From assembly GCA_016190995.1 (NCBI GenBank), contig JACPPN010000062.1, forward strand, positions 1 through 34,485: DNA of 34,485 nt, written 5' to 3'. A program made the position numbers and the translations under genes. Under the pieces are notes generated by a model, which was not told the DNA's origin, made no database searches, and saw nothing but the letters and a program-made list of their open reading frames with translations. Below, one piece after another: positions 191-33,134 of this stretch (the first letter of the stretch is position 1; each line of letters opens with the position of its first letter). Source of the DNA: Acidobacteriota bacterium. GTDB taxonomy: Bacteria > Acidobacteriota > Vicinamibacteria > Vicinamibacterales > JACPPN01.

Positions 191-194
<4 letters not shown>
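31..194 (-). repeat. Dispersed repeat A, copy 1 (extended form)
   Basis: The core (129-194) has terminal inverted repeats of 16 bp with one mismatch: GTAGCGAAGCTTCGCC at one end and GGCGAACCTTCGCTAC at the other, read on the minus strand. Each arm contains a near-palindrome. Next to the core, 101-122 is a perfect hairpin (CGCGGCCGCC, two-base loop, GGCGGCCGCG). The segment 31-75 (CATCTCCTAAGGCC, then TGACAGATGAAGCAAG) is shared with the copies at 18812 and 33427. The kinase-hydrolase stop codon (TAG, 191-193) lies inside the repeat edge. Nothing else convincing is coded in 1-190. It could be a MITE, a REP-like element or a structured 3' RNA. Confidence 0.85.
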
Positions 195-3064
<2,870 letters not shown>

Positions 3065-3084
3065 TCACCCCTTGACTCAGTGAT

Positions 3085-3128
3085 CCTGAATCCGGCGTCA
3101 AGAGCGCTCACCGCAGAGTACACGGAGG
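3085..3128. repeat. Dispersed repeat B, copy 1 (short)
   Basis: This copy begins CCTGAATCCGGCGTCAAGAG and continues through CTCACCGCAGAG to CACGGAGG. It matches the arms of the copies at 10296 and 30164. It lies about 20 bp upstream of the kinase-hydrolase start, in the 5' leader, in the 152-bp gap behind the DNA methylase stop. Confidence 0.75.
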
Positions 3129-3216
3129 TGTACTCCTCCTACTATCGGCTTGGGCGGTCGAAGCAACTAGTACGGCCGGCGCGTCCCGTCGGGACCGTGC
3201 GTGGCGGCGAGCCGGG

Positions 3217-6200
3217 TCATGGCGAGCCCCCCTTGAACTGTTCGAACGCCACTCTCTTCTCTGCGTCCTCCACCAGCGGGAACGTCCCCAGCACGTGCTG
3301 GAATTCCGTGTCCGTCAGGCCGTACAGGCGCGCGACCAGTCCCTGCAGTTGCCCTGACAAGGCTGCGCGCTCCGCCGGCCGCATCGACAACATCGCCGCC
3401 AGCTTCGCGATGGTCGTCGCCACCGGATCGCCGCTCGGGAAACGTGGCATGGGAAGCCGTTCGATGACCGCGACGCTGACGTGCGTCGTGACGCGCGGGC
3501 GAACGAGATAGTTGGCGACGAAGCTGTTGAGCACCCCACACAGATAGGCCTGCTGCTCGTCGGACAGCTCGGACTGGAGGCAGAAGACCGTGTGCGTCGT
3601 GACCGCGCGGGCCGGCACGATGGCCGCGATGAGCGTCAGCCGGTTGGTCGGCGAAGCGACGTCGCGGTACGCGAGTCGTCGGCGTGTGAACCCGCTTCCG
3701 CGTCCGAGAAGCGCGCGCGCCGTCCGTTCGGCCATCCCGTATCGAACCATCCGGAGGGAAGCGGCGAATGGCTCGAGCTGCTTGCCTTCGACGACCGGAA
3801 TCATCTGCCGGTCGGATGCACGATGCGTCCAGTGTTGGAAGAAGCCCGGTTCCACCTCGACGAAGTGCTCGCGATCGTCGGTCGCATTCAGCTCGCGGCC
3901 GAACCGGATGTTCCAGCCCTCGGGAGAGCCGAACGGCGGGACGCGCGCGGAGATGCTGTCGACGATGGCGACGTCGAGCGGGGTGCGGAGCTCGGGAATC
4001 GCGCAGGCGTCGCCGGAAACTCGCGCGATGAAAGCCCGCGTCAGGGTGACGGGAAACGAAGCGGGATCACGCGCCTCGTCCGGAACCGTGTCGAGCGATG
4101 AGGGATCCCGCTCGCCGAAGCGGCAGCGCAGCCGTGTCGTGGACCCGCCTTTCGTGGAGGTGACGAGGAGGAACCTGACGCTGCGGTGAATCGGAAACAC
4201 GCCGCTGCGATTCTCGAACCCAACCAGCATGTCCGTATCGCAGCGGTCCAGGAGCATCCGACGCAATCCGCTGCACCCGCGATCCAGCGCGAGGCCTGAT
4301 GGAACGATCATTCCGAGCCGGCCGCCGCGCCGGAGCAGCGAATGAGCGCGCTCGATGAAGAGCTGATAGCTGTTCGGGTGTCCGTCCCGCAGCTCGCGGT
4401 ACACACCCGCGTCCCGTGCGAACCGCACGAGACGTTGGCGCCCTGAGCGCTCGCGCGCTCGCGCCTCCCGTTCCGCGCCGTCGGCCCGGACGACGTCCCA
4501 CGGCGGATTGCCGAGAATGGCATCGAAGCCGGGATTCGGCAACGGCCGGCCGGTCTCATCGAAGAAGATTTCAGGGAACTCGAGCGTCCAGTGAAAAAAG
4601 CGGTGCGCCGCCGCGATGCGCGCCGCCTCTTGCAACCAGGCCCCCAGCGGCGCGTCGACGCTGGTCGCCTGGCGCGCAAGAACCGCGTCTTGAAGCGCTC
4701 CAAATAGCTTACGCGACGGCACCGGTGAGCCGTCCCAGAACCAGCACGCACACCAGAGATCGGCTGCGCGCTTCCATCGCGCCAGCGGCGCCGCGGGCGC
4801 ACACAAGTCTTCGAGCGCGCGTTCCTTGTCGCGGACGATCGCGACCGTGTCGTCCGGCTGCAGCGCAAGGCGCCATCGCTCCGGAACCACGACGCTCATG
4901 GCGTTCGGCAGATCGGCTGGATCGAAGAGCGGCAGGCTGCCTGGCCGCCGTCTCCTGATCCTCGCGGGTGGCTGGCGCGCCAGGTCATCGAGCGAGGCGC
5001 CGACCAGACTGTCGCCCGCGCGGAAGTGATGATCGAGAAAGGTGAGCGGCCGATCGGCCGCCAGGGTCGCGAGCCACAATGACAGCCGCGCGAGCTGCAC
5101 GGCCATGGGATTCAGATCGACGCCATACAGGCAACGCTGTGCAATGGTCCGCCTGAACCCCGCCCGCATCCCGTCGTCGATGTCCGGCGACGCGCAGTCG
5201 CCGTTCGCGACGAGCGCGTTCTCGTACGCGGCCGCGAGATAGCGGCCCGCGCTCACGAGGAACGCGCCGCTTCCCATCGATGGATCGAGAACCCGGAGCC
5301 CGAGAATCTGCTCGGCGGTCGCCGTGTGCGTCAAGGGGTGGAGCGTCCGGCGGACGAGAAAGTCGGTGAGCGAGCGCGGCGTGTAGAACGTGCCGGTCGC
5401 CTTGCGGCGCGAGTCGCCCGGGCGGCGCGCGATCCGGACGGTGGCGTTGCGGCCGTCAGGCTCGAGTTCGGGCACGTAGTCGAGGACACCCTCGTAGACC
5501 GCGCCGAGCTGCTCGACGCCGAGATCTCGGTACGCGATCGGTTCCCGCCGATGCCCATCGCGCGCCACGCGGGTCGTCAAGGCCAGGACCGCGCGGCCCG
5601 CGAAGTGATCCCCGACGCGCGATTCGGCCATCGGCGTCCGCGAGGGCGCGAAGAGCCGGCCGTTGAACGGCGTCACGTGCAGGTCACCGGCGCGGCACCC
5701 GGCATGCGCCAGGCGGCAGATCGCCTGGAGCGCTTCCCACAGGCCTCGTGCCGGAGTTGTGTCGTCGATCGATCGGCGCAGCGATTCGATGGTGTAGCTG
5801 TCGCGGTAGACCGGATGCCAGACCGGCACCAAGTGGCGTGCCTCGGCGAAGAGCAGAAAGAGCACGCGGTAGACGATGGTGAGCGCCTGGTCGAAGCAGT
5901 CGTCCAGGCGAAGCGACACCTTGCCGCCTGGACGGCGTCCGGCGGCGAACGCGAGGAGAAGCTCGGACAGCGCCTCGCGGACGCCTTGCTGCAGGGAAGC
6001 GCAGACGCTCGACGCATGTCGATCCGAGGCCTGAAGGGCCTGCTCGACGAATGAAGGACCCTCGAACGATTCCGCCGCCAGGAGACGAAGCGCAAGCGTT
6101 GCTTTGCCGTCATCGTCCGCGAGCGCAGCAAGATCGATGTCCAGGTGGCGTCGCGCGTACGAACGGTGCGCGTCGACGAGGCGCAGCCATGAACCGTTGA

Positions 6201-6597
6201 AGCAGAAGCACCAGCGCGAGGCTGACGCGAGCGCCTCGCGCACGGCAGCACGCCATACGCCATTCAGGCTGGCGTTCCACGTCACGATGGCAATCGGGAC
6301 CCCGGTGCCCCGCGCGGTCGTCAGCAGGCCGAGGGCCGCCGCCGGAGTGTCCCATCTGACGATCTGCAGATCGAAGCCCAGCACCGCGGCGAGCGGAACG
6401 GCGGCACAGTCGATCAACAGGCGCAGCCCCGTCGCCGGTCCGACGCTTGCACACGTCTGGAGCCACCAGCGCCGGAACGCGCGGGCGCGCCGATCCAGCG
6501 ACGGTGGCGGCACGCTGCCGCCCATCTCGGCCAGCTCGGATTCGAGAAAGGAAATGGAAAAGAGAGAACCACGGAAGACGGCGGGCATGGAACCCAT
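3217..6597 (-). CDS. Eco57I/DrmMI-like adenine-specific DNA methyltransferase
   Basis: This predicted N6-adenine DNA methyltransferase has about 1126 residues. Counting from the chosen ATG, an N-terminal helical region of about 400 residues precedes 'YTPRSLTDFLV' (about 405), AdoMet motif I DPSMGSGAF (438-446), and the catalytic motif NPPW (697-700) within FDAILGNPPW. The last 300 residues resemble a TaqI/Eco57I-type target-recognition region ('PVVEGKQLEPF'). The start at 6597 is supported by a strong ribosome site (AAGGAGG, 7 nt upstream). A start at 6690 would overlap the helicase gene and adds an unconvincing leader. The stop-to-start gap from the helicase is about 37 bp, so the two are probably one transcript. 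I see no clear PD-(D/E)XK nuclease motif. The size, motif order and helicase partner resemble DrmMI of class 1 DISARM and also PglX/Eco57I-type enzymes; choosing between them needs a profile search. Confidence 0.85.
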   Translation of the reverse strand: MGSMPAVFRGSLFSISFLESELAEMGGSVPPPSLDRRARAFRRWWLQTCASVGPATGLRLLIDCAAVPLAAVLGFDLQIVRWDTPAAALGLLTTARGTGVPIAIVTWNASLNGVWRAAVREALASASRWCFCFNGSWLRLVDAHRSYARRHLDIDLAALADDDGKATLALRLLAAESFEGPSFVEQALQASDRHASSVCASLQQGVREALSELLLAFAAGRRPGGKVSLRLDDCFDQALTIVYRVLFLLFAEARHLVPVWHPVYRDSYTIESLRRSIDDTTPARGLWEALQAICRLAHAGCRAGDLHVTPFNGRLFAPSRTPMAESRVGDHFAGRAVLALTTRVARDGHRREPIAYRDLGVEQLGAVYEGVLDYVPELEPDGRNATVRIARRPGDSRRKATGTFYTPRSLTDFLVRRTLHPLTHTATAEQILGLRVLDPSMGSGAFLVSAGRYLAAAYENALVANGDCASPDIDDGMRAGFRRTIAQRCLYGVDLNPMAVQLARLSLWLATLAADRPLTFLDHHFRAGDSLVGASLDDLARQPPARIRRRRPGSLPLFDPADLPNAMSVVVPERWRLALQPDDTVAIVRDKERALEDLCAPAAPLARWKRAADLWCACWFWDGSPVPSRKLFGALQDAVLARQATSVDAPLGAWLQEAARIAAAHRFFHWTLEFPEIFFDETGRPLPNPGFDAILGNPPWDVVRADGAEREARARERSGRQRLVRFARDAGVYRELRDGHPNSYQLFIERAHSLLRRGGRLGMIVPSGLALDRGCSGLRRMLLDRCDTDMLVGFENRSGVFPIHRSVRFLLVTSTKGGSTTRLRCRFGERDPSSLDTVPDEARDPASFPVTLTRAFIARVSGDACAIPELRTPLDVAIVDSISARVPPFGSPEGWNIRFGRELNATDDREHFVEVEPGFFQHWTHRASDRQMIPVVEGKQLEPFAASLRMVRYGMAERTARALLGRGSGFTRRRLAYRDVASPTNRLTLIAAIVPARAVTTHTVFCLQSELSDEQQAYLCGVLNSFVANYLVRPRVTTHVSVAVIERLPMPRFPSGDPVATTIAKLAAMLSMRPAERAALSGQLQGLVARLYGLTDTEFQHVLGTFPLVEDAEKRVAFEQFKGGSP

Positions 6598-6615
6598 GTC
6601 ACTTCCTCCTTGTTG

Positions 6616-6632
6616 CCGAATCCCGAATCCCG
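6616..6632. repeat. Short CCCGAATC repeat before the DNA methylase gene
   Basis: CCGAATCCCGAATCCCG sits in the short gap between the helicase stop (6635) and the methylase ribosome site. The same sequence type recurs at 9376-9392, so the helicase gene is bracketed by it. Confidence 0.6.
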
Positions 6633-6634
6633 CC

Positions 6635-9184
6635 TCAGACGACCCCAACGAGCACCAACTCCATCTCCTCGCGCTCGCGTCGCGCGGCACCGGCCGCCGC
6701 CGCGAGACGCCGCTCCAGCTCTTCGATCAGCAGCTCGCCCTCGGTGGCCTGACGCGGTCCCTCCTCGCGCGCGCGGGGATCGAACAACCCCGGTTGATGA
6801 AGCTGGCGTGACTCGCGCAAGGCATGTTCGAACAGAACGCGGTCGCGGTCGCGCTGAGCGGCAGACCCGGCGAGATGCCGGTCCACTGCGGCGAGCTTCG
6901 ATCGAGCCTCGACGCCAGCGCGATCCGTCAAGATCGGCCGCCACTTCACGAGAAGCTCTTCGATCTTGTGTCGCGCGTCGACGTGAGCGTGGAAGCGCGC
7001 GGGGAGGCGCGCGGGAAGGTGCATAGCGATCATGTCGCTGTGGATCGGCCGGCCAGTGCCGTCGAGACACGCGAGTCGAAAGATCGCGAGAAGCCCCTGG
7101 CGGTTCAGGACTCGGCTTCTCCTCAACGTGCTCACCCAAGGGCCGCGTCGCTCGAGGTTGGCAACCAGCGTGGCCGAGTCCGCTCGCGACAGCGAGTGTG
7201 GCGCATCCGGTGGCGCGAGCAGCCTCCGGACGGTCTGGAGACGACCAAGCTCGACTTCCGCTGCGGCTGAGACATCGACGTGCCTGAAATCCGTCCCCGC
7301 CACCCCGGGGGAGTTGGCACGGGCCCCGGCGTCGTGTGCCGATCGACTATCGAGACCATTGATGGCATCAGAAAAGACGCTGTCGCCGCCGAGCATCGCG
7401 ACGGGAATCGAGTCCGCGGGAATTCGTCCCAGGACATCGGCCACGTCACCGATCTGGCGTCGCACGCGCTCGACCCGCGTGGCGAGTCGCCCGAGAAGGC
7501 TTTCCTCGCGCGTGCCCCGCGCGACGAGATGCGTCGCGTGCACGCGGCGCTGCTGCCCGATGCGATCGAGGCGGCCGACCCGCTGCTCGAGACGCATCGG
7601 GTTCCAGGGCAGCTCGTAGTTGACGACCCATCGCGCGCGCGCCTGCAGATTCAGGCCCTCGCCCGCCGCGTCGGTCGCCAGCAGAACACGCGCGCTGCCC
7701 GTGTTGAAGCGCTTTTCCGACTCTCTACGGTCGGCGCGCGAAAGGCCGCCGTGCAGGAGTGCGACCGTCCCCAGTGGCGCGACGGCTTCGGCCAGTCGGG
7801 CCAGGGTGTCGCGGTATTCCGTGAAGACGATCACCGAATCCGTGGTGCGACGGATCACCCGCTGGAGCGCGCGGCACTTGCTTTCGTGCAGCGCGGCGCG
7901 TCTGGCCGCCTCGAGCACCCGCGTCAGGCATGTCCGTTCGGTTGCCCGATCGATCATTCCCGGCGACGCGAGAACCGAGGCCGGTTCCTCGTCGGCCTCG
8001 TCCGTCTCACCCAGACAGCGTGGATCCTCGAAGGGCAGCGACCCCTGTTCGGCGGCCGCCCCCGGGTCGTCGACGAGCTGCAGGCGCCGCGCGACCGAGC
8101 GCGCCAGGGAGTCGGCGCTCGACAACGCGCGCTTCTGGAGGACGCACATGGCGACGATCGGCTGGCTCGTCTCGCGGCCCGCGGTTTCCGCGACGACCAG
8201 CCGGATGTACCGATCCAGCTCGTCGTGCATGCACCGTTCGTCCGGCGTTGTGGCCACGTGCAGCAGCTTCGTCACCCGCGTCGTGAGCTGCCCGACGTCG
8301 CGGCGCGTACGGCGGAACATCGCGATCGGGTCACGCGCGCGTTCGCCGATGCGCCCGATGCCGCACATCCATGCGAAGGCGGCGTCATCGCCCGCGTGTG
8401 GCGTGGCTGTCAGGAGAAGGACCCGGCGGCTGTTCGATGCGATGACGCGCGCGGCGGCGCCGCGGTCGGTGCCAATCGACGCGCCGTGCGCTTCGTCGAT
8501 GACGAGCAGATCCCACGGCACGCGACGTATCGCGGCCAGCACGTGCGCCTGCTTGATGAAATCGAGCGAAGCAATCGCAAGACGGGGGACCATCCACGGA
8601 TTGATCGACGATGGAAGCAGGGCGCTTTCCCGTCTGAGTATTGCGGCATCGAGGATCGAGACCTCGAGACCGAACCGATCCAAGAGCTCCTCGCGCCACT
8701 GATCGCGAATACCGGCCGGCGTGAGAATCAAGGCACGCCGCATGTCGCCGCGTGCCCAGAGCTCGGCGAGCGCCAGCGCCGCCTGCACGGTCTTGCCCAG
8801 TCCCACTTCGTCGGCCAGCAGCACGCGCGAGCTGAGGCCGCCGACCAGGGCGAGCGCGGGCTCGAGCTGGTAGGAGACGAGGGTGACGCGCGCGAAGGCG
8901 GCGACATGCAGGCCGTCGCAGGGCGCGGACGTTACCGCCAGGGCACGAAACGCGCGCGCCCACCGGCCGCGTCCGACCATCCGCACCGCTTCGGTCCGCG
9001 TGAGGCGATGCGGCCTGTCAAACGGACACAGAAAGGTGCGGCGCTGGTCGCGGTTGGCCGGCTCAACGCCCGTGACCGCTATGGCCGTGCAATCGTCGAA
9101 TGGCTGCACGTGCCGAACGCGCCACGCGTAGTCGCGCACCCGGACGAGATCGCCAGCTCGCACCTCGAATGACGGTTTCTGCAA
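6635..9184 (-). CDS. SNF2/DrmD-like DEAH-box helicase
   Basis: This superfamily 2 helicase/translocase has about 849 residues. Its N-terminal beta-rich segment (FEVRAGDLVRVRDYAWRVR) is typical of SNF2/RapA-like defence helicases. Counting from the TTG start, Walker A is ADEVGLGKT (about 124-132), the Walker B/DEAH box is VIDEAHGA (about 228-235) and motif III is TATPH (about 259-263). The C-terminal RecA lobe has VIVFTEYRD, ATDAAGEGLNLQ and QRVGRLDRIGQ. A final helical region of about 250 residues has no recognised motif. I prefer the TTG at 9184 because AAAGGTG precedes it and the 15 extra residues from the GTG at 9229 are cysteine-rich and unlike the family. It precedes the adenine methylase, and the pair resembles drmD-drmMI. 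It probably translocates on DNA using ATP. Whether it provides restriction cannot be told from sequence alone. Confidence 0.87.
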   Translation of the reverse strand: MQKPSFEVRAGDLVRVRDYAWRVRHVQPFDDCTAIAVTGVEPANRDQRRTFLCPFDRPHRLTRTEAVRMVGRGRWARAFRALAVTSAPCDGLHVAAFARVTLVSYQLEPALALVGGLSSRVLLADEVGLGKTVQAALALAELWARGDMRRALILTPAGIRDQWREELLDRFGLEVSILDAAILRRESALLPSSINPWMVPRLAIASLDFIKQAHVLAAIRRVPWDLLVIDEAHGASIGTDRGAAARVIASNSRRVLLLTATPHAGDDAAFAWMCGIGRIGERARDPIAMFRRTRRDVGQLTTRVTKLLHVATTPDERCMHDELDRYIRLVVAETAGRETSQPIVAMCVLQKRALSSADSLARSVARRLQLVDDPGAAAEQGSLPFEDPRCLGETDEADEEPASVLASPGMIDRATERTCLTRVLEAARRAALHESKCRALQRVIRRTTDSVIVFTEYRDTLARLAEAVAPLGTVALLHGGLSRADRRESEKRFNTGSARVLLATDAAGEGLNLQARARWVVNYELPWNPMRLEQRVGRLDRIGQQRRVHATHLVARGTREESLLGRLATRVERVRRQIGDVADVLGRIPADSIPVAMLGGDSVFSDAINGLDSRSAHDAGARANSPGVAGTDFRHVDVSAAAEVELGRLQTVRRLLAPPDAPHSLSRADSATLVANLERRGPWVSTLRRSRVLNRQGLLAIFRLACLDGTGRPIHSDMIAMHLPARLPARFHAHVDARHKIEELLVKWRPILTDRAGVEARSKLAAVDRHLAGSAAQRDRDRVLFEHALRESRQLHQPGLFDPRAREEGPRQATEGELLIEELERRLAAAAGAARREREEMELVLVGVV

Positions 9185-30324: not shown

Positions 30325-33045
30325 CTACCTCTTGATGCCCGTCGTGAGGATCGCGTTGAACAGCAGCCGGAAGGTTGCGTGCGACTGCGCCCGGTGCTGC
30401 GCGCGAAATCCGATGAGCACGACGCGCCCGAGCCCGGCACGCGCCTCGACGACGGCGGCTTGTCCCGCAACCCGGTCTCCCCCTTCCAGCCAGCCGCTCA
30501 ACAGCAAGTCTTTGCTGCCGTAGCGTCCAACGATCTGAATCGGCGCCGTGAGCTCGCCGGGACCACTGTGGCCGGTGGCGGAGCCCCGCGATCGCGTCGT
30601 CGCGACGGCGGTCTCCTCGGTCGTTTCCCGCGGCGCGGTAATCTCATACGCGGCGCTGTAGGCGAAGAAGGCGGCCGTGTGCTCCGGCATTCCGTACGCG
30701 AGCGGCTGCGCAGGATCGAGGTCGAGCCGGAGGATCGATCCGGGACAGAAGAATTCATCGGGCCGCGCGTCGCGGACGAGGTCGCGGACGGGCAGCTTGA
30801 AGGCGTTGATGGCGAGGTCGCCCGACGAATCGAGCGCGATGAGCGTGCCCCCGGCTTCGACGAAGCGCTTGAGCCCCGTGATGCCTTCCTCGCCGAGTCC
30901 GCCCGCATACTCCGGAGGCACGGCGCCGGCGGCATGTCCCGCGATCAGACGCTCCGCCGGGGCATCAGGAAGCATGATGGCATCGAACCGGGCTCCCAGG
31001 TCGGTGCGCCGCACGTCCTGATCACTGATGGACGTGAACGGGAACTCGTACTGTTCGAACAACCATCGCGTCCAGCCCTCATCGATGCTCCGCACCCAGG
31101 GCTTGTAGAGCGCGAGGCGGACGGGCTGCAGCCGCAGCAGACCCGACGGGAGCTTGCCTCTGGCGCCTGACGCGGCAAGACCGAGCTCGCGCGCGACGCG
31201 CTGGACCGACTGGCGCGCGCGCCGTGAGTCGCCGACGACGATCGAACCTCGCGCAAACCGGCGTCTGGACACGTTCGTGTCGGTGCTGGTCCACGACGCC
31301 TGCAAGCCGGCGGCGCGCAGGCGCATGACGGCCATGGCCCCCCCGTTGCCCCGTCCCTCGACGATCAAGTACGACGCCCGTCTTTCGCCGCCGACCTCGG
31401 CCGGCGGGATGGTCGCGCGTTCGAGGCGGCTCGTCATCGGCAGCCTGAACGGGCGATCGACAACCGTCACGGTCACGCCCATCTGATACGGCAGGGTCCA
31501 GCCGGCCACGTCGTACGGGCGCTCGGGCGGTCCCTGTGGGGCCAGGCGGCGCGCGGGATAGTCCTGCCGCTCGAGCAGCGTCTTCACGTAGGCGCGGTAC
31601 GGTTGCGCCATCACGACGATGGCCGTGCCGATCGGATACTCGACGCCGCCCGCGCGAAACGGCTCTTCCGCACGCTGGATCTCGACGCCGCCCTGGATGA
31701 GCAGATTCGTGAGCTTGGCCGCCGCGTGCGGGTCGTACTGATCGGGAGGAATGAGGAACGCGAAGGGACCGGTTGCGCTTCCTTTTTCAACGGCGCGCTT
31801 TCCCATCAGGTAGAAGTTCTGGAGCAGCGATTCGCGGTAGCGCGAGGCGGCGCCGAGCAGCCCCTTCACTGCCGTGAGGTCGTAGTCGACGATGTCGGCA
31901 AGCGTCCAGGTGCCGCCGGGCCACGGATTCGGGAAGTTGATCTGCGGCCGATACTGCGGAAGTCCGTGGGGCGAGCCGCTCAATTCGGAGGGCGCCACGA
32001 CGACCGGCAGGGCCAGGCGTGCGGAGGCCACCTCCGTCAGAAGGCAGACCGTGTTGTGGCCCAGCGGCGCCGAGTCTTCATAACCGGGCCAGTAGTAATC
32101 GAACAGCGCGTTCGAGACGACGCCGGACTTGCCTGCGTGCTCGAGCTCGAGCGCCATCGCGTGACCGAGCAATCCGGCTTCGCGCCAGATGAGCGGGTCG
32201 TAGTTCGGATCGATCGGCTCGTAGTTCGGCGGGACGAAGAACCTCGGCCCCTTCGAACCCATCTGATGCATCGTCAGGAACACTTGTGGATGCCACTCGG
32301 TGTAAAAGAAGCGCGCGAGGTTGCGGTTCTCCGCGAGGTTCATCATGAAGGCGTCGCGATTGATGTCGTGGCCGACGTACCTGTGATACAGCCACGGCAT
32401 CGGAGCGGCTTCGAACGGCGTCCCTCTGTTCTTCTCGAACCAGTTCACGACCAGGGTGTGGCCGTCGGGATTGAGTGATGGCATCAGGACGAGGACGACG
32501 TTGCGCAGCATCTCGAGCGTGGACGGATCGGTCGCGGTCGCGAGGTGATAGAGGAGCTCGTTGGCGGCTTGCGTCGCCCCGATTTCGTCCGCATGAATGC
32601 TGCACCCGATGGCGACGATGACCTTCTGATCCGCGGCGAGGCGTGCGGCTTCCTCGGGAGAGAGGGTGCGCGGATCCGCGAGACGCTGATTGGCTTCGCG
32701 GATGGCGGCCAGCCGCGCGATGTTCTCAGGCGCGCTGACGATCGCGGCGATGAGACGATTGCCCTCCGTCGTGACGCCGACTTCCGTCAGCTCGACCCGA
32801 TCGGATGCGCGCGCGACCGTGTCGAAGTACTTGCTGATCTCGGTCCAGCTCGCGAGACGGCCCTCTGTGCCCGGCTTGAACCCGAAAGACGCTTCCGGCG
32901 TCGGGATCGATTCGCTTCCGGTCCCGGGCGCGCGCGCCGCGAGGGCGATCGGGCCGAGTCCGCCCGTCGGCAGCGTGAGACCCGCGAGCGCGACCAGGAA
33001 CAGGGCGCAGACACCATGCAGTCGCAATGGGCGCATGGCGCCCAT
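30325..33045 (-). CDS. Secreted M14-family zinc carboxypeptidase
   Basis: This protein has about 906 residues. An N-terminal hydrophobic signal (LHGVCALFLVALAGLTLP) is followed by an M14 metallopeptidase domain. The zinc motif HADE (H-x-x-E, about residues 151-154) lies in AIGCSIHADEIGA, LMPSLNPDGH and DINRD follow, and LTMHQMGSKG supplies the likely third zinc ligand. The C-terminal half (about 400-900) is a long extension with a glutamine-amidotransferase-like feel in places (RFDAIMLPD, LKRFVEAGGTLIALDSSG). This layout is frequent in Acidobacteriota M14 proteins. It should trim peptides in the periplasm or outside the cell. The start is uncertain among GTG 33063, ATG 33045 and ATG 33036, since none has a good ribosome site; the signal peptide is kept in all. 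It is convergent to lysR copy 2 and not clearly tied to the catabolic locus. Confidence 0.87.
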   Translation of the reverse strand: MGAMRPLRLHGVCALFLVALAGLTLPTGGLGPIALAARAPGTGSESIPTPEASFGFKPGTEGRLASWTEISKYFDTVARASDRVELTEVGVTTEGNRLIAAIVSAPENIARLAAIREANQRLADPRTLSPEEAARLAADQKVIVAIGCSIHADEIGATQAANELLYHLATATDPSTLEMLRNVVLVLMPSLNPDGHTLVVNWFEKNRGTPFEAAPMPWLYHRYVGHDINRDAFMMNLAENRNLARFFYTEWHPQVFLTMHQMGSKGPRFFVPPNYEPIDPNYDPLIWREAGLLGHAMALELEHAGKSGVVSNALFDYYWPGYEDSAPLGHNTVCLLTEVASARLALPVVVAPSELSGSPHGLPQYRPQINFPNPWPGGTWTLADIVDYDLTAVKGLLGAASRYRESLLQNFYLMGKRAVEKGSATGPFAFLIPPDQYDPHAAAKLTNLLIQGGVEIQRAEEPFRAGGVEYPIGTAIVVMAQPYRAYVKTLLERQDYPARRLAPQGPPERPYDVAGWTLPYQMGVTVTVVDRPFRLPMTSRLERATIPPAEVGGERRASYLIVEGRGNGGAMAVMRLRAAGLQASWTSTDTNVSRRRFARGSIVVGDSRRARQSVQRVARELGLAASGARGKLPSGLLRLQPVRLALYKPWVRSIDEGWTRWLFEQYEFPFTSISDQDVRRTDLGARFDAIMLPDAPAERLIAGHAAGAVPPEYAGGLGEEGITGLKRFVEAGGTLIALDSSGDLAINAFKLPVRDLVRDARPDEFFCPGSILRLDLDPAQPLAYGMPEHTAAFFAYSAAYEITAPRETTEETAVATTRSRGSATGHSGPGELTAPIQIVGRYGSKDLLLSGWLEGGDRVAGQAAVVEARAGLGRVVLIGFRAQHRAQSHATFRLLFNAILTTGIKR

Positions 33046-33134
33046 CGTAGCGCGAACCGTCACTGACGCGAAATGGTCGACTCTCGACCGTCAACGACAG
33101 AGCCGCCGGATGGTTGGAAGCACATCTGAAGAAG

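Follow-up and report, generated by a model that had tools for sequence, protein, structure and literature searches.

The window analysed here is a 34,485-nt stretch, one contig of the 3.82-Mb draft genome (400 contigs, 86% complete) of an acidobacterium of the order Vicinamibacterales, and it carries two adjacent genes on its minus strand, to which all coordinates of the pair given below refer. The upstream gene (6635..9184) encodes an SNF2/RapA-type helicase of 849 aa, counted from a TTG start at 9184 (the open frame extends to 9229), in which Pfam recognizes the Helicase_C (7e-23) and SNF2 domains. It is followed, after an intergenic gap of 37 bp (6598..6634) in which the ribosome-binding site AAGGAGG precedes the ATG at 6597, by a gene (3217..6597) for a putative Eco57I-type gamma-class adenine-N6 DNA methyltransferase of 1126 aa, matched by the Eco57I (1.5e-22) and N6_Mtase families. 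The preliminary description of this DNA had reported a helicase and an Eco57I-type methylase about 37 bp apart, with intact ATPase and AdoMet/NPPW motifs; the arrangement was found as described, and reading of the sequence together with alignments of orthologues confirmed the motifs. In the helicase, the Walker A motif ADEVGLGKT (8789..8815) is nearly invariant and the DEAH box (8486..8497) is invariant among 34 orthologues, and the motif VI region, GRLDRIGQ, lies at 7576-7553. The methylase exhibits the motif X region FYTPR (5374..5388), the AdoMet-binding motif I DPSMGSGA (5263..5286), the catalytic motif IV NPPW (4498..4509), which is invariant in 40 orthologues, and a target-recognition region (3418..4152). 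The pair is under purifying selection, with dN/dS values for close pairs of 0.17-0.23 in the methylase and 0.24-0.32 in the helicase; conservation in dozens of genomes together with these values among close relatives indicates that the two genes are not a chance association.

The AlphaFold2 model of the helicase (pLDDT 85.3) finds its best structural match in RapA (Z 23.3, 577 residues over positions 64-848), the bacterial SNF2 ATPase responsible for recycling RNA polymerase. Many other SNF2 motors match the model at tied Z scores, but among the matches listed RapA is the only solved structure that aligns with the whole protein, its C-terminal part included. The RapA structures 8spg and 6bog align up to residue 848, over 577-643 residues and with an rmsd of 8-9 A, so the interdomain geometry differs. 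The helicase is also set apart from RapA by a sequence identity of about 20% and by being always paired with a methylase. Its C-terminal region (6638..7414) evolves fast, as judged from low column identity, and no nuclease motif was seen there; we rejected a nuclease hidden in this region because it aligns with that of RapA to the end.

The model of the methylase (pLDDT 87.9) matches best CamA of Clostridioides difficile (Z 26.4, 504 residues), followed by BrxX and LlaGI (both 24.4) and then DrdV. CamA, which every C. difficile genome carries as an orphan methylase (PMC8187626), is likewise a gamma-class adenine methylase without a nuclease, spread through its whole lineage and rare outside it, but it comprises only about 577 aa, lacks the 400-residue N-terminal part and has no known helicase partner. 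With BrxX/PglX of BREX and with the type ISP enzyme LlaGI the methylase shares a core preceded by a long helical N-terminal part. In LlaGI, however, a single chain unites the nuclease with the helicase and the methylase, a fusion that does not exist here, and BrxX works with brxZ, brxL and other genes of a set that is absent here: PglX models match the methylase weakly, and the Pfam annotation of the window and of neighbour genes includes no pglZ/brxZ, brxC or brxL.

Orthologues of the methylase (matches at E<=1e-100) are present in 102 of the 162 Vicinamibacterales genomes, that is, in more than half of the related species; they are 40-56% identical over the full length and occur almost always as one copy per genome, and at 1e-20 the number of genomes with a match rises to 112/162. 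In a sample of 396 genomes of the phylum, searched at E<=1e-60, all 29 matches fell within Vicinamibacterales and none outside. Families f13 and f14 (37 genomes) and f8 (one genome) have no orthologue, which leaves 102 of 124 genomes elsewhere in the order with the methylase and 22 (about 18%) without the pair, incomplete assemblies being among the causes; because of this fraction the pair is not essential. The helicase has nearly the same spread. A survey of homologous neighbourhoods, suggested along with the preliminary description, compared 70 genomes: in each of them the helicase lies directly upstream, sharing strand and contig with the methylase, and in 69 the distance to the matched part is at most 1.5 kb; the pair usually occupies a recurring site marked by HU, QueF and PanE. 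Orphan methylases are conserved at the genus level in 57% of cases, as compared to 9% for restriction-associated ones (Blow et al. 2016, PMC4752239), and by that yardstick the predicted enzyme is a conserved orphan-type methylase, unusual for its dedicated RapA-like partner; no nuclease gene or motif was seen in the pair or in its recurring neighbours, a distant partner being possible. In some copies of the core methylase the matched open frame contains an in-frame stop (genomes G106, at C130:11985-15332, G069 and G070), which represents either recent decay or assembly errors.

The recurring neighbourhood, compared at 40 loci, comprises genes for a sigma-54 activator, a radical SAM protein, a solute-binding protein, a divergent HU, QueF and Smr, then the helicase and methylase, and beyond these in some loci NrfD and a molybdopterin oxidoreductase, followed by divergent TauE and PanE; none of these neighbours is a defence gene. 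In short form the order is HU-QueF-(Smr)-[pair]-TauE-PanE, with QueF present at 27 and HU at 25 of 41 pair loci. Among genomes without the pair, one (G076) exhibits an empty site flanked as in pair-bearing relatives by an M14 peptidase and then PanE, another (G078) retains a fragment of the methylase C-terminus at the site, and a third (G064) a helicase fragment beside QueF, and therefore the pair has been lost in at least some of the genomes without it. In the genome studied here QueF and HU lie on another contig, hence the pair or its flank has moved there; the window contains, at 30328-33063, an M14 peptidase gene resembling the one at other loci. Searches of plasmids, phages and viral contigs returned no close copy (best identities about 33%, partial), and an origin as a mobile element or phage gene was rejected.

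When 40 methylases are placed on a tree, their family labels require 10 changes, compared with a minimum of 9 and a mean of 26.8 after shuffling, with a few families (f15, f2) split. Distances of the methylase and the helicase correlate at r 0.92, and at a partial 0.76 given QueF and HU, which, being linked to the pair as neighbours, do not serve as an independent marker of the species; relative to these two genes the pair evolves at 2-3 times the rate. Over 780 pairs, identity in the recognition region follows that of the catalytic core (r 0.78, with a residual SD of 0.04 and a largest drop of 0.12): the drift is smooth, no abrupt swap of the recognition domain was seen in any of these pairs, and switching was discarded as an explanation. 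This pattern argues for a stable specificity, and judged by its gene tree and distribution the pair forms a near-core locus passed on vertically, not a patchy island.

Several rival explanations of such a locus have to be weighed. The preliminary description saw no nuclease motif in either protein, which our analysis upholds, and placed a possible restriction activity in an unrecognised domain, either the first 400 residues of the methylase or the last 250 of the helicase, a suggestion that the tests of both regions do not support. The N-terminal domain of the methylase (6058..6597) displays an alpha-beta-beta-beta-alpha-beta order that reads as PD-(D/E)XK-like, a reading taken from the DSSP string of the model and not from a domain fold search, and the alignments of some type IIG and ISP structures set in at this region. 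Both observations speak for a type IIG/ISP-like restriction system with an unrecognised nuclease, in either protein or encoded elsewhere, but strand 3 (TGVPIAIVTW, ~6277-6306 by DSSP of the model) carries neither [DE]xK nor QxK in any of the 40 orthologues. The same kind of search recovered the D...[DE]xK motif in 39 of 69 testable distant relatives, drawn from a survey beyond Acidobacteriota that covered the best 80 loci of a contig scan. With the catalytic residues missing throughout, a hidden nuclease in the methylase N-terminus was rejected and, the helicase C-terminus being RapA-like, restriction of this type appears very unlikely.

The pair had further been likened to an orphan drmD-drmMI pair or a degenerate DISARM. 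DrmD and DrmMI are indeed its best PADLOC families, the two protein kinds stand in the same order and orientation as in class 1 DISARM, and [DE]xK is likewise missing from the aligned part of DrmMI. However, the pair scores only 280 bits against DrmD and 338 bits, in two stretches, against DrmMI (PDLC02643), about a quarter of the 1068 and 1353 bits reached by genuine DrmD and DrmMI in G106, a genome of the same order that possesses these together with DrmA (972 bits) in one locus besides the core pair; the DrmMI match of 1353 bits to PDLC02643, listed for the DISARM locus L160, extends from end to end. The helicase attains 329.7 bits with the NCBI DrmD model NF038317, below its cut-off of 610, and the two proteins measure 849 and 1126 aa as opposed to 1071 and 1321 in L160. 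Class 1 DISARM occurs patchily in the order, whereas the pair is near-core and vertical. In agreement with the preliminary description, no drmA, drmB or drmC was found among the annotated genes of the window, nor among the recurring neighbours. The preliminary description had named such genes elsewhere in the same genome, acting with the pair, as grounds for refutation; the order-wide survey shows there a single DUF1998/MZB protein, an 868-aa ORF that is not DrmB but an MrfA-like housekeeping protein encoded by almost all genomes of Vicinamibacterales. MZB proteins of DrmB size occur only sporadically in these genomes, and neither such a partner nor DruE was found elsewhere in this 86% complete genome. 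Thus, of the earlier interpretation there stands an adjacent pair distantly related to DrmD and DrmMI, devoid of DrmA/B/C and of a recognisable nuclease, while the orphan or degenerate DISARM is not supported. A DISARM remnant left after the loss of drmA/B/C is largely contradicted by the profile scores, by maintenance of the pair in about 100 genomes and by the complement of G106; we rejected it, and find it hardly credible.

A fixed, constitutive two-gene defence deserves more consideration, although we regard it as somewhat unlikely. The methylase would mark self DNA and the RapA-like translocase would block or strip replication or transcription from unmarked phage DNA, a scheme that would work without a nuclease, as proposed for a nuclease-dispensable step of DISARM, whose activity is independent of its nuclease DrmC (PMC9142583). 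Both parts have homologues that function in DISARM and BREX, and the closest relatives outside the order point in the same direction. In Verrucosispora sioxanthis (L088:2594-14492) and in a Thermococcus MAG (L122:360-13223) the genes for a RapA/DrmD-like helicase and a DrmMI-like methylase precede one for a DruE-like giant helicase, in a three-gene module that looks like a DISARM-Druantia hybrid; in Thermus scotoductus (L095:920-8817) a BrxL-like gene precedes the helicase and an Eco57I methylase, possibly a minimal BREX-like set. Since the two-gene core thus appears in several defence settings, a defence origin is suggested. Fast evolution of the pair, together with the very variable helicase C-terminus, would also fit an arms race. 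On the other hand, defence genes do not usually show vertical inheritance at a housekeeping site, a near-core distribution, an unswapped recognition domain and a lack of close copies on phages or plasmids, and neither DrmA/B nor DruE stands beside the pair. Among the distant Eco57I methylases of the survey beyond Acidobacteriota (L088-L159), D...[DE]xK is absent in 8/8 of those with an upstream SNF2 helicase and present in 35/49 of those without a detected one, the probability of the former by chance being 2e-4 if the rows were independent, which they are not; nuclease loss seems to go with having a helicase partner.

The explanation that we favour, with a probability of roughly 0.6, is that the pair is a vertically inherited unit, near-core in Vicinamibacterales, in which a nuclease-free m6A methylase is accompanied by an obligate RapA-like translocase. 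Because it is fixed and inherited in most members of the order, a constant DNA-methylation mark, which may serve regulation of the cell, is more probable than mobile phage defence. The gamma-class enzyme, whose specificity is probably constant, would methylate a constant motif genome-wide, and the SNF2 double-stranded DNA translocase may clear or move bound proteins, thereby opening sites to the methylase, or alternatively may act on DNA according to its methylation state. The role would be housekeeping or epigenetic, as for CamA, Dam and CcrM, and not restriction, and the parts probably go back to a defence module of the DISARM, BREX or Druantia kind that an ancestor of the order took over. 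Against this explanation we count the defence-type genes adjoining the nearest relatives outside the order. A bolder version, quite unlikely in our estimate, would make the pair a bacterial equivalent of the eukaryotic partnership between SNF2 remodellers and DNA methylases (DDM1/LSH with DNMTs): a dedicated RapA-like translocase would give or deny a single lineage-wide core m6A methylase access to protein-covered DNA, and the whole order would possess an epigenetic mark along with a remodeller for it.

There are only a few core orphan methylases, and examples such as Dam, CcrM and CamA have been studied well; to our knowledge none of these three has an SNF2 translocase of its own. If true, the favoured reading of the pair as a core methylation unit would show how a phage-defence module becomes domesticated across an order of abundant soil bacteria, and it would be a warning that matches to DISARM-type profiles do not always signify defence. 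The idea of a core mark lends itself to a direct test, since Luteitalea, placed in Vicinamibacterales, Acidobacteriota, by the NCBI taxonomy, provides cultured members of the order and long reads show methylation; a literature search for a methylome or defence study of Vicinamibacterales returned nothing specific.

Directly downstream of the pair, at 191-3064 of the window, lies a gene for a Ser/Thr kinase fused to an FGE-sulfatase (formylglycine-generating-like) domain. Just upstream of this gene, at 3076-3127, is an interspersed repeat about 50 bp long (CTCTGCGGTGAGCGCTCTTGACGCCGGATTCAGGATC), for which the same genome shows 40 matches at 79-94% identity; seven other copies were checked and none adjoins such a kinase. 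A perfect inverted repeat, GAGTACAC-CTCC-GTGTACTC, is located ahead of the kinase gene at 3116-3135 and occurs once in the genome, even when two mismatches are allowed.
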